Shown: piece after piece, positions 2,639-64,000 of the stretch | How positions within the stretch are numbered: the stretch's first letter is position 1 | Layout of the letters: every line of letters begins with the position of its first letter | Assembly (NCBI RefSeq): GCF_000403135.1 | Contig: NZ_AQPN01000079.1 | Span: 62,001-126,000 of the forward strand | From: Arcticibacter svalbardensis MN12-7 | Lineage (GTDB): Bacteria; Bacteroidota; Bacteroidia; Sphingobacteriales; Sphingobacteriaceae | Direction: 5' to 3' | Length of the DNA stretch: 64,000 nt | Translations under genes and position numbers: made by a program | Notes under the pieces: generated by a model | Database searches by the model: none | Told to the model about the DNA's origin: nothing | The model's input: the letters and a program-made list of their open reading frames with translations, nothing else

Positions 2639-3796
2639 TTACCATAAAAGTTTTACATCCGCTGGCCATTGCTTCACATCAGTATAATTCTCATTACCTT
2701 TTTTAAATGTGCTGTTTTCCATTTTAACATCGCATTTTAGCAAACCCATATCAATTTCTTTATTATTAAAAACACTATTGATAACGTAGCTATTATTCAC
2801 CGAACGCCACAAAGCTCCCCACCTGTTATTTATAATTTCACATCTATTTAAGATCACTTTTTGAGGTGCATATTTTGGATCTTCTGTATAATTATACTTA
2901 TCGTAATAATTTTCGCAAGGAAACCAAAGTGCTACTTGGCCGCAACCAGAAACATGGTATTTATGGAAAAAGATATAACCCGCTTCTTCATGATCGGATT
3001 GGATTCCGTTTTTGCTACAATCTTTAATGGTACAACGTTGGGCTAAAACAAATTCACAAGAAGTATATTTATTTCCTTTCCCTAAAACAGGATACGACAT
3101 ATCGCAATCTGATTGCAAAATGTATTTGTTATACAAAAAATAAACATTGTGATACAAGGAATTACCTGAACCATTTTTTTGGAAATTACAAGCATCCATC
3201 ACAATATTATCAGTACGTTTCATGTGTACGCCTGTGCCTGCCCAGTTTTTTACGTCAACATGCTGAAGCATGATGCGGTTATGCCTTTCTCCGTTTTTGC
3301 CTGCCATTAAAATACCATGAGCCTTGCTATTTCCTCCAATTCCTATAATGGAAAGATTAGAAATCACAACATCAGTAATTTGTGGCAAAGGATCGGCCTG
3401 AAAAGCTCCTCCATCTGTTAATCCAATATCTTGCTTAATGATGGTATGCTCTGTACCTTCGCCAATAATGGTTACTTTACTTTTTAATACAATAGGTTTA
3501 CTCACTAAATAAGTACCCTTTTTTAGTAAAACAACGCCACCATTTCTAGTAACTTTATCAATTGCTTTTTGAATAGATTCGCCAGGGTCTACCGCAATAA
3601 CAGCATTTAACCATTGGTGAGGATAGCTTACATGCACAAAATCATTATTCCATTTTGCTTTCATAGTAGTATAAACCTCTGGCTCAATCTCTACCCTTTT
3701 TAATTGATAATCAGGAATTGGCTTAAAAGCAAAAACTGCAGTTAAAAAAATCACAGCCAGCAAAGCAAATGGTCTATTTAAGCTTTTAAAATTCAT
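2639..3796 (-). CDS. exported right-handed beta-helix protein, candidate polysaccharide lyase
   Basis: 385 residues. An N-terminal hydrophobic segment (about 8-24) predicts export. From about residue 70 the sequence has the pectate-lyase-like entry ESIQKAIDKVTRNGGVVLLKKGTY, and then turns repeating at about 20-25 residues (VTIIGEGTEHTII, VVISNLSIIGIGG, IMLQHVDVKNW, IVMDACNFQ, VILNRCEIINN), typical of a parallel beta-helix. It sits five bases before the sulfatase on its 5-prime side and upstream of a fucosidase. I cannot assign a CAZy family and see no signature catalytic set. It may be a lyase, an epimerase or a glycoside hydrolase acting on the PUL substrate. Because GH88 in the same locus needs a lyase-made unsaturated uronoside, the lyase role is a reasonable inference. 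Confidence 0.75.
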   Translation of the reverse strand: MNFKSLNRPFALLAVIFLTAVFAFKPIPDYQLKRVEIEPEVYTTMKAKWNNDFVHVSYPHQWLNAVIAVDPGESIQKAIDKVTRNGGVVLLKKGTYLVSKPIVLKSKVTIIGEGTEHTIIKQDIGLTDGGAFQADPLPQITDVVISNLSIIGIGGNSKAHGILMAGKNGERHNRIMLQHVDVKNWAGTGVHMKRTDNIVMDACNFQKNGSGNSLYHNVYFLYNKYILQSDCDMSYPVLGKGNKYTSCEFVLAQRCTIKDCSKNGIQSDHEEAGYIFFHKYHVSGCGQVALWFPCENYYDKYNYTEDPKYAPQKVILNRCEIINNRWGALWRSVNNSYVINSVFNNKEIDMGLLKCDVKMENSTFKKGNENYTDVKQWPADVKLLW

Positions 3797-3801
3797 CAGG
3801 C

Positions 3802-5289
3802 TTAATTTTTAATTTTAGGCTGGTTCCATAAACGATATGGATCGTAATTAGCAATCATCTGTTGCAAAAGTAAACCTTCCATTTCAGCTAGTTTTTTAGC
3901 GTATTTAGGATTGTTTGCCAAATTGGTTTCCATAGCGCCACTTTTATGGTGTTCTGGTAAATATTCGTTAGGGTTTTCTGCTAAATTAAATAGCTGAGTT
4001 TGCCTAACCGCTCCGTTCATTGCATCGTATTTTATCAGTTTCCAATCTCCCTTTTTCACAGTGCGTATACCCGGTTTTGTACCGCCCGCATAAGCACCAT
4101 ACATAACATCTCTAATTGATGTTTTTTCTCCAAATAAAACAGACTTAAAACTTTTACCCTCTACTTTTTCAGGGATTTTTATACCTGCTAAATCGCATAA
4201 TGTCGGCAATACATCTAATAAATAAATATTTCCTTCTACCCTAGTGCCCGCTTTAATACCTGGTCCTTTTACAAAAAATGGAACTCTCCACGTATGCTCA
4301 TATAAGTTTTGTTTGCCCATTAAACCATGTCTACCAATAGCTATTCCATGATCTGCGGTATAAATTACATAGGTATTATCCAACTCACCCATATCTTTTA
4401 ATTTTTGGAGTACTTTTTTCAGCTGATTATCTATGTTTTCAACACATGCATACTCTCTACCTAGCTCATTTCTTACGGTTTGTAAATCGCGGTTTTTCCA
4501 AACACCACTTACCATTTCTTCATCTCTCAATTCTGGATGACCGATAAAAAAAGGATGTTTAGACAAATAATTAGCTTGTAAAGGCGGTTGCTTAGGATTT
4601 AGGGCAGGTAAAGTATTGGGATCTGTATGGTTGGTTGCGCCATATTTCGACAATAACTCTGGTGTACCATCTCTTACATCATGTGGATGAGAAAAGCCAA
4701 AATAAATCATAAAAGGAGCTTCTTCCTTTGTTGCTTCTCTCTCATCTAAATAGGTCAACACCTGTTTAGAATGCCAAGCACTGCCGCTTTCTTCTGTCCC
4801 ACCACGTTTTGTTGCCTCTTTATTTACGGTGAACAAAGCATTGGCTTTAGGGTATGAATTTCCTTTTTTACAAGTACGCATAGTTTTATAACCTGCTCTG
4901 TTAAAAATAGCGCCCATCGTATTATATGCCATCGTATCTGGATGGTTTTTGTTGATAAATTCTTTGCCTTGTGAGGGAATGTGCCAAAGTGTACGCCCGC
5001 TCATAATCATGTGGCGAGATGGCGCACAAACTGCACCTACCATAGATCCCATGTGTCTGGCGCTTTCAAAAACCATCCCTTCAGCAGCTAGCTGATTAAT
5101 GGTGGGGCTTTCTAAAATCGACTTTCCATCATAAACTTTTAAATCAAATGGAGATTCATCATCCACCAATACAAATAGAAAGTTTGGACGCTTTTTTTCT
5201 TTTTTGAAATTTTTGAAACCTGTGAAGCATGACACTATTAACAGTGCGAGTACCCCTTTTTTAAGTGCTTTATTCATAAATTTATTCAA
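3802..5289 (-). CDS. family S1 formylglycine sulfatase, probable lipoprotein
   Basis: 495 residues. The N-terminus has a lipobox (LIVSC, C21), so a lipid-anchored periplasmic or surface enzyme is predicted. FLFVLVDDESPFDL supplies the metal-binding aspartates. C88 in CAPSR is the cysteine that would be converted to formylglycine. TADHGIAIGRHGLMGKQNLYEH carries the late Asp-His and Lys-His metal/sulfate ligands. The C-terminus (RTVKKGDWKLIKYD..) is the usual small beta subdomain. It lies between a beta-helix gene and a GH29 gene, so it most likely removes sulfate esters from the fucose-containing substrate. No maturase (anSME or FGE) is encoded in this window. Sulfate position and S1 subfamily are not readable. 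Confidence 0.93.
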   Translation of the reverse strand: MNKFMNKALKKGVLALLIVSCFTGFKNFKKEKKRPNFLFVLVDDESPFDLKVYDGKSILESPTINQLAAEGMVFESARHMGSMVGAVCAPSRHMIMSGRTLWHIPSQGKEFINKNHPDTMAYNTMGAIFNRAGYKTMRTCKKGNSYPKANALFTVNKEATKRGGTEESGSAWHSKQVLTYLDEREATKEEAPFMIYFGFSHPHDVRDGTPELLSKYGATNHTDPNTLPALNPKQPPLQANYLSKHPFFIGHPELRDEEMVSGVWKNRDLQTVRNELGREYACVENIDNQLKKVLQKLKDMGELDNTYVIYTADHGIAIGRHGLMGKQNLYEHTWRVPFFVKGPGIKAGTRVEGNIYLLDVLPTLCDLAGIKIPEKVEGKSFKSVLFGEKTSIRDVMYGAYAGGTKPGIRTVKKGDWKLIKYDAMNGAVRQTQLFNLAENPNEYLPEHHKSGAMETNLANNPKYAKKLAEMEGLLLQQMIANYDPYRLWNQPKIKN

Positions 5290-60851: not shown

Positions 60852-61040
60852 TTATAAATCGCCACTTCGCTTAGTTGAAGCGAGATATTTGCAGGACTAG
60901 CTTTCCTATTTATTATCTCCTTAATGGTTGATTTTCATATTATAAATTTCTGCTCTTTTCTTAGAAATCACTCGGCGGAAAGGAATGCAAGGGTTGGCTA
61001 TCCGGATTTTTTATTATAAATCGCCACTTCGCTTTCTTAG
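60852..61040. repeat. degenerate extra copies of the vWA gene 3-prime end
   Basis: TTATAAATCGCCACTTCGCT, the reverse of the last codons and stop of the vWA gene at 61014, recurs exactly at 60852. At 60940-60990 another copy has TTATAAA, then CTTAGAAATCACTCGGCGGA and AAGGAATGCAA, matching the gene's own CTTAGAAACCATTCGATGGA and AAGGAATGCGA (61038-61066). Spacing is 88 and 74 bases. The copies lie just past the stop and do not continue the reading frame. Confidence 0.75.
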
Positions 61041-63097
61041 AAACCATTCGATGGAAAGGAATGCGATAATAAGGAAGAATAATGCTTTTTTATTAATGAG
61101 TTCGACATAGCTTGAATCAGCGTAAGATATTGTTTTAACCATCTCGCTTTTGTTGATAGCGTTAAATAGTTGATTCAATTGATCGGGAGAAAACATTTCT
61201 GCTCCACTCTCTTTTGAGAGCTGACTTAAGAGATGATGATTGGCTTTGGTTTCTTGAAGCTCCAGTTGATTTTCTGTGATCAGAATTCGACCTTCTGCGG
61301 TATAGGATTGACTTCCTATGTTTGTTGTTGCCTGATATACATATTCGCCGACTGGTAAAAAACCTGCATCTAAGGTATAAGACTTATTTATTCTGGAAAA
61401 TAGAAATGAAAATACCTGCTTTTTATTGTTACTGATTGTAAGGGGTACATCCGGACTGTTTATAAGCTCGTAGGCGTCATTATAAAGTTCGGCATTCAAT
61501 ATGACCCGCTCATTTTCGTTAAAGGTTTTCTGAGCGGTATATACCCTAAATTTTCGTTTATCTACATCGGCTAACAGGTACTGTACCGACTTACTGAGTA
61601 ACTGATCGATGCTAGCCGTGTTTCCATAGGTGTTAAAGGACTGTAACCGCCATTTCCAGATTCCTTCTCCGGCAAGCACAGCGGTCTTTGGTTTGGCATC
61701 GACAGAAAAACTTAAAAGTGGATTTGTGACCGGGTTGCCCGTTTGCTGGAACAGCAGGTCAACATGATTCCCTTTAAACTGAACATTGGAAAAAGGAATT
61801 AAAAGCGGACCATATTGCTTGAGCTGATCTTTTAGACTGTCGGCCATTACAAAAGAGGAAAAGGAAGGATTTAAAACGGCTGTAACTTCTCTTAATTGGC
61901 CGTTTGAATTGACCTTCAGCAAATTTTGATGATTGGAAAACTGATTTAGATTGCTCTGGGCACCTAGAATGAAGAATATTGGTTTATCCTTAATCTGGTT
62001 CATCAAAGTACTTACAGGCTGAGTAAGAGAAGGAAGCTGATGTAAAATAACCAGATCAGCTTTTTCCAATACGCTACTATTGATAGCTTGAGCATATTCA
62101 ACCTGTACTTCAAAGCTTTTAATTGTTTCAAGTGCTTGTTTAATAGCACTAATATCAGGATGCGGCGAGTTGGCTACCAGGAGTATATTTTTTTTGTTTC
62201 CTCTATCCTGATGTAAAAATCCTGCTGATTATTATTTTTAGACAGTTCATTGTTTACCGGATCGATCGCTACGGTATACTTTTTAATTCCTGGTTTATCG
62301 GAAGGAAGGATTACAGGAATATTAACTTGATAATCATTGGAATTGATGTCGAGATCTTTTTTAGATAATGTAGTGTTATTGCTTCGAACAGTTATTCTGC
62401 TTTTCAGTCCTTTACTTTGATAGGCTGCCGCCTGAACTTCTATTTGGAAATCATTTCCGGATTGAACGGTCTCGTTATAATTTACGTTTGCAATCAAAAG
62501 ATCTTTCTTAGGAATAGTATCTCCAAGGGCAATACTATAAATTGGTGCTTTAATTGAGAGTGCTGCCTCTTGGGGGTCTCCTCCCCGATTATATAGACCA
62601 TCACTTGCAAGAATTATAGCTCCAATGTTTCTGCCCGCATATTGATTCCTGATGAAGCTGAAAAGGGATGATATATCAGTGCTTTTATCGTTGAAATTAA
62701 GGGAATAACCAGGTCGTGTAGTACTGCCTAGCAATAGCGTGTCTATTTGATATTTTTGAGACAGGCGCTTATAAAATTCATCCATTTGCTTTTGATATTT
62801 TGCAAACTGGAATCCGGCTGGTGCTGAGGTTTTGAGAGAGGTAGAATTATCCTGCACGAGAATTAAGACAGGTTTTTCAAGTTTGAAACTATTAAGCTTA
62901 AGGAGAGGGGCAAAAAGAAGGAAGGTAATGAGTGCGACACTGACCGTCCGGAGTGAGAAATAGAGATATTGAGGGACGGTTGAGGTTATCCGCTTTTTAC
63001 CATACAATAAGTACGCATATCCTAACCCTAAAAGGATACTGGCTAATAACCCTAAAAAATGAGATGTATTAAATTCCAAAGGCAAATGAAATAGCAT
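61014..63097 (-). pseudogene. vWA-like membrane protein, frame broken at an A8 tract
   Basis: The N-terminal frame has two membrane helices (FLGLLASILLGLGYAYLLYG; LRTVSVALITFLLFAPLL), then a vWA-like domain with the MIDAS start LVQDNSTS and GAIILASDGLYNRGG, then a beta domain to RIEETKKIYSW. An A8 run (T8 at 62188-62195) causes the break: with nine A it reads KKNILLVANSPHPDISA and joins the second frame, which continues to a last membrane helix (ALFFLIIAFLSIEWFLRKR). The whole is about 694 residues and resembles Bacteroidota BatA/vWA-type proteins of unknown role. It may be intact in reality. Confidence 0.8.
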
Positions 63098-63137
63098 ATT
63101 TACTACTATGTAAATATGCTATTTTTAATTCAAATTA

Positions 63138-63500
63138 TGACATGCCTTCGTTAACTGAAAGGGGCTGGTCTTTATAAGAATTAATTGTTTTAATTTCTTA
63201 TTAAGACTTGCCTCAGTCAATTCAAATGACTTGACATTAATTTTAAAATATTATTTTCAATTATTACTAAGACATGCCTCAGTCAACTGAAAGAACCTGG
63301 TCTTAATATTAATTTATTGTTTTTATTTATTATTAAGACATGCCTCGGTCAATTCAAATGACTTGACATTAATTTTAAAATATTATTTTCAATTATTACT
63401 AAGACATGCCTCAGTCAACTGAAAGAACCTGGTCTTAATATTAATTTATTGTTTTTACTTATTATTAAGACATACCTCCGTCAACTGAAAGAACCTGACC
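63138..63500. repeat. 66-bp tandem array built from the fabG 3-prime end
   Basis: Six copies of a segment such as AGACATGCCTCAGTCAACTG start at 63138, 63204, 63270, 63336, 63402 and 63468, exactly 66 bases apart. The last copy is the true 3-prime end of fabG (codons for LSVDGGMS and stop at 63465). Between them are about 33 bases of AT-rich spacer. Copies 2 and 4 share the variant ending AATTCAAATGACTTGAC and copies 3 and 5 share AACTGAAAGAACCTGGTC, so the array also has a 132-bp higher-order period. Confidence 0.92.
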
Positions 63501-64000
63501 GGTAAGGTAAGCACTTAAATCAGATGCCAGAAATAGGCAGGCATTAGCCACATCTTCGGTATCACCAGCACGTTTTAATGGAATATTCTGCTCCCAGGCT
63601 GCAACAACCTTGGGATCAAGAACCTCAGTCATCTCTGTTTTGATGAAACCCGGAGCAACCACATTTGTCCGAATATTTCTCGAACCAAGCTCTTTAGCCA
63701 TAGATTTAGAAAATCCAATAATGCCAGCTTTAGATGCGGAATAATTCCCTTGCCCGGCATTACCCTGAATCCCGACAACTGAACTCATATTGATGAATAC
63801 ACCTTTGCGATTCTTCATCATGATCTTCGAAGCGGCTTTGGTAATGTTGAACACAGATTTCAAGTTCACTTCAAGCACATCATCCCATTGCTGTTCAGTC
63901 ATGCGCATCAATAAACCATCTTTAGTGATTCCTGCATTATTCACCACTATATCGATAGTGCCAAAATCGGCAACTACATCATTTATAAGCTGTTCAGCCT
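63465..64000 (-). CDS. fabG: 3-oxoacyl-[acyl-carrier-protein] reductase (partial, start outside window)
   Basis: The frame is open to the window end, so the N-terminal Rossmann glycine motif is not seen. Visible are NNAGITKDGLLMRM, the catalytic Ser in INMSSVVG, YSASKAG (YxxxK), and RTNVVAPGFIKTEMTEVL, ending YLTGQVLSVDGGMS, all classic FabG. It reduces beta-ketoacyl-ACP with NADPH in fatty-acid synthesis. Its extreme 3-prime end is duplicated downstream in a tandem array. Confidence 0.95.
   Translation of the reverse strand, partial: AEQLINDVVADFGTIDIVVNNAGITKDGLLMRMTEQQWDDVLEVNLKSVFNITKAASKIMMKNRKGVFINMSSVVGIQGNAGQGNYSASKAGIIGFSKSMAKELGSRNIRTNVVAPGFIKTEMTEVLDPKVVAAWEQNIPLKRAGDTEDVANACLFLASDLSAYLTGQVLSVDGGMS

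Follow-up and report, generated by a model that had tools for sequence, protein, structure and literature searches.

A minisatellite made of the 3′ end of fabG lies directly behind this fatty-acid gene in the cold-soil bacterium Arcticibacter svalbardensis MN12-7. In the analysed window, a stretch of 64,000 nucleotides, five decayed copies of the last 36 bases of fabG with 30-base spacers follow the gene at an exact 66-base period and a 132-base superperiod. The minisatellite is real and lineage-specific, its origin by duplication is well supported, and its mechanism is ordinary. It probably arose in an ancestor shared by two Arcticibacter species and then, by slippage or unequal crossover, gained units at its gene-side end, probably without having a function. 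It has the look of an ordinary local repeat array that grows and decays, notable mainly because it overlaps the end of a presumably essential gene. On a small scale, it shows clearly how a minisatellite can start from the 3′ end of a gene of core metabolism, apparently with growth from the gene side, and the two sister species were caught at different stages of the array.

Anatomy of the array

The 3′ part of fabG, encoding 3-oxoacyl-ACP reductase, occupies positions 63465–64000 on the minus strand, with the stop codon at 63465–63467, and the gene runs past the end of the window. The whole gene (positions 3466–4209 of locus L009) encodes 247 amino acids. The open reading frame (ORF) matched TIGR01830 with 332.9 bits against a cut-off of 297.75, and the A. 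svalbardensis genome (4,687,695 bases, 149 contigs) contains no second match of this kind at E ≤ 1e-80. fabG is generally regarded as essential.

The unit phase was chosen as a 36-base tail (11 codons and the stop codon) followed by a 30-base spacer. In the unit alignment, the source of the repeated tail is the gene tail at 63465–63500, and the spacer directly after fabG (63435–63464, type S1) differs from the spacer after unit u2 at 1 of 30 bases. All units lie on the minus strand. Unit u1 (63369–63434) is composed of a type A tail (63399–63434) and a type S2 spacer, and unit u2 (63303–63368) of a type B tail (63333–63368) and a type S1 spacer. Unit u3 (63237–63302) is of type A and the same as u1 at all 66 bases, u4 (63171–63236) is of type B, and u5 (63135–63170) is the outermost tail copy, beyond which no repeat was found. 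Read from the gene, the order is gene-S1-A-S2-B-S1-A-S2-B-S1′-u5-terminator region, and the unit length is constant across the whole array. Compared with the gene, the tails of u1 to u5 had 5, 8, 5, 9, and 9 mismatches in 36 bases, respectively, while u2 and u4 differed from each other at 2 of 36 tail bases and 6 of 30 spacer bases. A terminator-like hairpin of 15 pairs, which is also present in A. eurypsychrophilus, stands outside the array at 63089–63124 on the same strand.

The sequence-only reading had described a 66-bp tandem array of the fabG tail with alternating A and B variants and a 132-bp superperiod, and this was confirmed by Tandem Repeats Finder (TRF), by self-matching, and by the unit alignment. 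TRF reported a period of 66 with 5.5 copies at 63134–63497 (74% match) and a period of 132 with 2.6 copies (92% match), both with 0% indels. When positions 63137–63470 were matched against themselves, the identity was 92% at a shift of 132 and 72% at a shift of 66. Moreover, an 18-base core allowing up to 3 mismatches was matched five times (the gene and 4 of the 5 copies), compared with 0.05 matches expected from shuffling. No second array-level match was present in the A. svalbardensis genome, where the next match covered 28 bases (E 2e-4). This match was considered as a further copy and rejected; it is AT-rich, ends a 377-codon open frame in both species, and was treated as chance. A coding array was likewise rejected, as each tail copy closes with a stop in the fabG frame and, besides fabG, the sole ORF of at least 30 amino acids entering the array is one of 31 amino acids at 63125–63220.

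The array in the sister species and its distribution among relatives

Among six Arcticibacter genomes, a second array was found only in A. eurypsychrophilus MJ9-5 (E 6e-31, 74% over 219 bases). It has three copies, c1 to c3, at a 66-base period and is homologous to that of A. svalbardensis. The average nucleotide identity (ANI) of the two species is 89.11%, according to the available part of the species report (PMC5435697). The tail array is absent from the other four genomes of the genus (G001, G003, G004, and G005), so that the copy number is five in A. svalbardensis, three in A. eurypsychrophilus, and zero in these four.

In relatives, the 700 bases after fabG were searched for a copy of its last 33 bases, and the best of 100 shuffles served as the threshold. 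In the first 55 loci, a FabG ORF carrying the motifs looked for was present, and a further 11 were family loci passed over by the motif filter; at least two further genomes occur twice among these 66 loci (L019/L044 and L020/L045, judged by identical results), and 30 of the 60 family FabG matches listed lie outside the screen. Three of the 66 loci were positive, and these belong to A. svalbardensis and A. eurypsychrophilus from two collections, i.e., to two genomes. No tail copy above the threshold was detected in the other 63 loci (52 of 55 and 11 of 11). The search for the array in related genomes, which had been put forward as a check, was therefore answered in two ways: the array recurs in A. 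eurypsychrophilus, but it is absent from 63 of the 66 screened loci. Other genes were also inspected for a tail copy of at least 25/33 within 250 bases. None was found behind any other of the 1,033 ORFs of A. svalbardensis (at least 100 amino acids, 1.19 Mb) or behind 859 ORFs of other genera, and one weak further case (25/33) occurred among 449 ORFs of A. eurypsychrophilus.

Origin and growth of the array

In the common ancestor of the two species, a block of approximately 66 bases, namely the last 36 bases of fabG and about 30 bases downstream, would have been duplicated in tandem. The outermost copies, u5 and c3, are orthologous: their tails differ at 7 of 36 bases, and the following bases at only 1 of 30, with 29 in common between the species. 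New units would then have arisen on the gene side, separately in each lineage, by replication slippage or unequal crossover, presumably in a 132-base (two-unit) step in A. svalbardensis and in a 66-base step in A. eurypsychrophilus. The recent units of A. svalbardensis are u1 and u3, identical over 66 bases within a 132-base duplication; in the 66-base duplication of A. eurypsychrophilus, the c1 unit departs from that of the gene at 3 of 66 bases (1 of 36 in the tail and 2 of 30 in the spacer). The two species thus made their gene-side copies independently of each other. The original proposal, that slippage or unequal crossover duplicated the tail, is supported by the comparison with A. eurypsychrophilus and the screened relatives.

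Selection at the protein level would keep the tail of fabG itself readable, and the older copies would drift. Moreover, nearby copies may from time to time exchange sequence with the gene tail, which would keep some copy tails gene-like while their spacers diverge. In the case of c2, the tail is gene-like (4 of 36 bases different) and carries a base of the gene that is specific to the sister species, yet its spacer is old and related to that of u4 (7 of 30 different), as tail exchange would give. We infer that unequal crossover or conversion may have exchanged sequence inside this tail.

The earlier claim that the tail is kept better than the spacer held in part. Most comparisons within an array agreed with it, e.g., that of the gene and c2 in A. 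eurypsychrophilus, where 4 of 36 tail bases and 13 of 30 spacer bases differ, but the comparison of fabG with u2 in A. svalbardensis shows the reversed pattern (8 of 36 and 1 of 30). The matching copies of the two species also did not agree with it, neither u5 and c3 nor u4 and c2, the latter differing at 12 of 36 tail bases and 7 of 30 spacer bases. The tails of u5 and c3 differ by 19%, whereas the gene tails differ at 3 of 36 bases; since this difference exceeds both that of the gene tails and the average implied by the ANI, the old copy is without extra conservation. These alignments do not clearly point to selection acting on the copies, in a test that is weak, as the hairpin extends into the bases after u5 and c3, and the tail of c2 may be a recent gene copy.

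Two observations count against drift. The constant 66-base units of both species seem a little tidy for drifting DNA; the gene-adjacent spacers of the two species differ at 12 of 30 bases, and the unit length is nonetheless unchanged in both. In addition, the array of A. svalbardensis has a strong RNA fold, and drift needs no such fold. Regarding the source of the spacers, they may derive from the DNA next to the terminator, namely its arm, but the support is weak: an ungapped comparison gave a faint signal (p 0.006 to 0.06, with eight non-independent spacers), and a gapped test of seven spacers was negative (p 0.23 to 1.0).

RNA structure and the role of hairpins

The alternative that survives best refines the preferred explanation more than it opposes it. 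The duplication may be driven by spacers prone to form hairpins, which template switching at imperfect inverted repeats may sharpen; the structure would then be a cause or a by-product of the repeat process and would not itself be selected. This is rather unlikely. The spacer ends of A. svalbardensis form GTCTTAATA / TATTAAGAC arms, which by eye are missing at the homologous site of A. eurypsychrophilus, and hairpin-driven slippage has been proposed for Wolbachia variable-number tandem repeats (VNTRs) in the accessible portion of their description (PMC3287509). Two further arrays bear on the matter. The rlmH–msrB array of A. eurypsychrophilus (65 × 4.0, superperiod 131, 33-base substructure; L146 8846–9146, C24) lies approximately 0.75 kb upstream of fabG and is hairpin-forming, with 0 to 2 of 150 controls folding as well as its units. 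However, the folB–thioesterase array of A. svalbardensis (67 × 5.4, 80% match, no indels; L143 18835–19213, C106), with units of about 67 bases, showed no fold excess (136 and 113 of 150 controls as good), and neither did the fabG unit of A. eurypsychrophilus (45 and 96 of 150).

According to the next alternative, which we regard as improbable, the array would be a functional element of the fabG 3′ untranslated region, with unit hairpins that help termination or make the mRNA end more stable. For the fold of the transcribed strand, repeat-preserving controls were prepared in which every unit received the same permutation of its tail columns and of its spacer columns. The A. svalbardensis array with the gene tail folded at −98.2 kcal/mol, far better than the controls (−64.8 kcal/mol, sd 8.5; 0 of 200 as good, z −3.9). 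Against plain dinucleotide shuffles, the array regions of both species were better (z −9.7 in A. svalbardensis and −3.8 in A. eurypsychrophilus, 0 of 100 as good in each), in a comparison that includes the terminator hairpin and breaks the repeats. Hairpins at the unit junctions also occur in both species: at junctions 0, 2, and 4 of A. svalbardensis, 8, 4, and 0 of 200 shuffles were as good, and at junctions 0 and 1 of A. eurypsychrophilus, 1 and 13 (borderline). Single units fold well, with 2 of 200 as good for each of u1 and u3 and 0 of 200 for c1, and the array sits between the fabG stop codon and the terminator-like hairpin.

In contrast, the A. eurypsychrophilus array was unremarkable under the repeat-preserving controls (−52.3 versus −51.2 kcal/mol; 82 of 200 as good). 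When the gene tail was removed, 0 of 200 controls were as good in A. svalbardensis and 76 of 200 in A. eurypsychrophilus. Junctions 1 and 3 of A. svalbardensis (152 and 142 of 200 shuffles as good) and junction 2 of A. eurypsychrophilus (191 of 200) had no fold excess. The helices of the two species stand, by eye, in different registers, and a joint alignment of the eight junctions (seven distinct) yielded no consensus pair. A search of 62900–63700 against Rfam found no family at the gathering score, the two sub-threshold matches reaching 23.4 against 49 and 23.1 against 100 bits. Furthermore, the 63 other screened loci manage without the array. We take the RNA structure of the array to be lineage-specific.

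The roles in termination, in mRNA 3′ stability, and in protein binding that the sequence-only reading had considered gained no support. In the case of termination, which was rejected, the terminator-like hairpin is a separate element beyond the array, and no array unit qualifies as an intrinsic terminator, i.e., a GC-containing stem followed by a T run. This hairpin, at 63089–63124, is the only terminator-like site in 62900–63700 (one found versus 0.5 expected in shuffles) and folded better than 200 of 200 shuffles; a similar hairpin-like sequence was seen by eye within approximately 150 bases after fabG in several relatives that have no array. In the case of mRNA stability, the strong fold is missing in A. 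eurypsychrophilus under the same control, and no consensus structure was found.

Other arrays and the 65–67 base step

A wider and quite improbable proposal is that the intergenic DNA of Arcticibacter undergoes local tandem duplication in which steps of about 66 bases are preferred, possibly as multiples of an 11-base quantum, and that the fabG array may exchange with the coding end. To survey this DNA, 1.59 Mb of A. svalbardensis (the window included), 0.94 Mb of A. eurypsychrophilus, and, for comparison, 0.80 Mb of other genera (79 loci) were sampled. TRF was applied with periods of at least 30 and at least 2.4 copies to the first 1.19 Mb of A. svalbardensis and 0.54 Mb of A. eurypsychrophilus, and a lower-threshold run was made on the full samples, with one row kept per place.

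The intergenic arrays with at least four copies and a period of at least 30 that TRF reported in the two Arcticibacter samples were those at fabG and folB in A. svalbardensis and at rlmH in A. eurypsychrophilus, and all have periods of 65–67. The four-copy cut was set after seeing the data, and it narrowly excludes a 33/66-base repeat of A. svalbardensis (L132) with 3.8 units. The clustering at 65–67 bases, noticed afterwards in a small sample, is suggestive. As the folB array is missing, by eye, from the same place in A. eurypsychrophilus, and the rlmH array is absent from A. svalbardensis, where the intergenic stretch has 143 bases, these two arrays are also lineage-specific. In a BLAST comparison of 20 repeat regions, only the two fabG arrays matched each other; the fabG, folB, and rlmH arrays are unrelated.

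Shorter repeats with the same step were also present. A 33/66-base repeat starts from the stop codon of a yceI gene (Pfam YceI) in A. svalbardensis (L132 592–718, C43), with about two copies at a shift of 66 (L132 592–715), and a 66-base duplication lies over the start of a yqgF-like gene, named by eye, in A. eurypsychrophilus (L209 10343–10445, C19; ORF start 10354). The other intergenic shifts were 54, 45, and 166 in A. svalbardensis; 77, 25, 115, 73, 44, 44, 44, 63, and 165 in A. eurypsychrophilus; and 42, 73, 25, 41, 28, 28, and 64 in other genera, where one half-coding array (73 × 4.0, L060) was also found. Shifts of 125 and 126 look coding by eye and were left out of the intergenic set. 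An 81-base in-frame coding repeat occurs in both species (L128 3529–3723 and L146 64–251).

With the strong arrays masked, the intergenic self-match peaks were 11, 138, 54, 9, and 33 in A. svalbardensis; 22, 11, 44, 78, and 66 in A. eurypsychrophilus; and 21, 105, 7, 14, and 42 in other genera. The 11-base quantum was rejected. The period-11 excess comes partly from a dispersed repeat of the GCGGAGAAGGT type, and for periods of at least 15, R at 11 was 0.36 (p 0.017 versus jitter), while R at 9 was higher (0.41), with ten uncorrected moduli. This dispersed repeat, an 11-base tandem type with the variants GCGGAGAAGGT / CGCACCTTCTC, forms short arrays of 2–4 copies in both species, at loci L126, L132, L156, L159, L163, L177, and L230 of A. 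svalbardensis and L148, L203, L245, L246, L253, and L255 of A. eurypsychrophilus. The exact two-variant pattern was counted seven times in A. svalbardensis, seven times in A. eurypsychrophilus, and once in the 0.80 Mb of other genera, and it did not occur in the window.

Exchange between the array and the coding end of fabG was considered because only the array-bearing species, among the 66 screened loci, have a FabG ending in Ser; in both, the protein ends in LTGQVLSVDGGMS. The change at the FabG end was also compared with that of the body. The first count gave a tail/body ratio of 2.4, versus 1.1 to 1.7 for four other references; it took 19 of 30 relatives, and the 11 left out ended in -CGGM-. 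With all 30 relatives, the per-site ratio was 2.33 for A. svalbardensis and 2.35 for A. eurypsychrophilus, versus 1.49 to 2.11 for eight other references. The larger first contrast resulted from leaving out the 11 relatives, and a faster change of the FabG end was rejected: there is no clear excess in the array-bearing species.

If complete genomes were to confirm the 65–67 base step shared by unrelated arrays, short tandem duplications in bacteria would seem to follow a rule of mechanical or enzymatic origin. If the array does feed changes into fabG, repeats outside a gene would shape the end of a core protein.

Reliability of the assembly

The MN12-7 assembly comprises 4.69 Mb in 151 contigs and was obtained from 454 reads (PMC3709154). 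Division of the figures in that report gives an average read of about 348 bases, slightly shorter than the 364-base array. The exact copy number, especially that of the 132-base step, is provisional because of this read length. That the array as such is an assembly artefact is nonetheless very hard to believe. The read length speaks for it, as does the construction of the A. eurypsychrophilus genome from short reads, as given in the available part of its report (PMC5435697). However, the units differ in sequence, and a homologous array is carried by the second species in an assembly from another sequencing technology, which also leaves the single-copy artefact named beforehand as a possible refutation unsupported.

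A separate observation concerns the gene beyond the array, at 61014–63097 of the window. It is one ORF of 694 amino acids in A. eurypsychrophilus and two ORFs (307 and 351 amino acids) here. The break adjoins a run of eight T at 62188–62195, which is the pattern expected of a homopolymer error in 454 reads. Neither of the two pieces matched a Pfam family.

Comparison with known repeat systems

Integrating elements are known to rebuild the tails of genes when they insert at 3′ ends, which would favour repeated integration of small elements at the fabG 3′ end with duplicated attachment sites left behind, but the exact 66-base spacing, the similarity of the spacers, and the lack of a recognisable integrase among the neighbouring ORFs (by eye, five of them through Pfam) make this the least credible of the alternatives.

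A layout of 36 + 30 bases is a common CRISPR period, and the fabG array resembles a CRISPR array in this layout. Unlike those of CRISPR, its spacers (S1 and S2) recur and are AT-rich, and its repeats are decayed fabG codons, the tail copies being 5–9 of 36 bases off the gene and not near-identical; the class was therefore rejected. None of the five ORFs of the fabG region searched against Pfam (FabG, SelR/MsrB, RlmH, and two without a match) is a cas gene, and the other neighbours were inspected by eye only. Similar to the extragenic palindromes REP and BIME, as far as the available part of their description goes, the array is extragenic with a palindromic tendency (PMC2817692). Dispersed repeats of this class require many genome copies, but the fabG array has one array-level match and no second copy, for which this class was rejected as well, and its sequence comes from the neighbouring gene.

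Among the papers retrieved in a literature search, mostly as titles and the beginnings of abstracts, none was recognised as a report of a bacterial array built from the tail of its own gene. The closest comparison is with VNTRs and minisatellites: the fabG array consists of head-to-tail units (66 × 5.5, 0% indels), and its copy number differs between related genomes. In Wolbachia, according to the accessible sections of the report (PMC3287509), VNTR-105 and VNTR-141 are intergenic, with head-to-tail units of 105 and 141 bases and periods that are 98–99% identical, and the authors proposed slippage together with concerted evolution. Compared with this part of the Wolbachia description, the array of fabG likewise has head-to-tail units, here of 66 bases, is hairpin-prone, and varies in copy number between relatives. 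Unlike those VNTRs as described there, most of its units are more diverged, and its unit takes in a translated gene tail with the stop codon.
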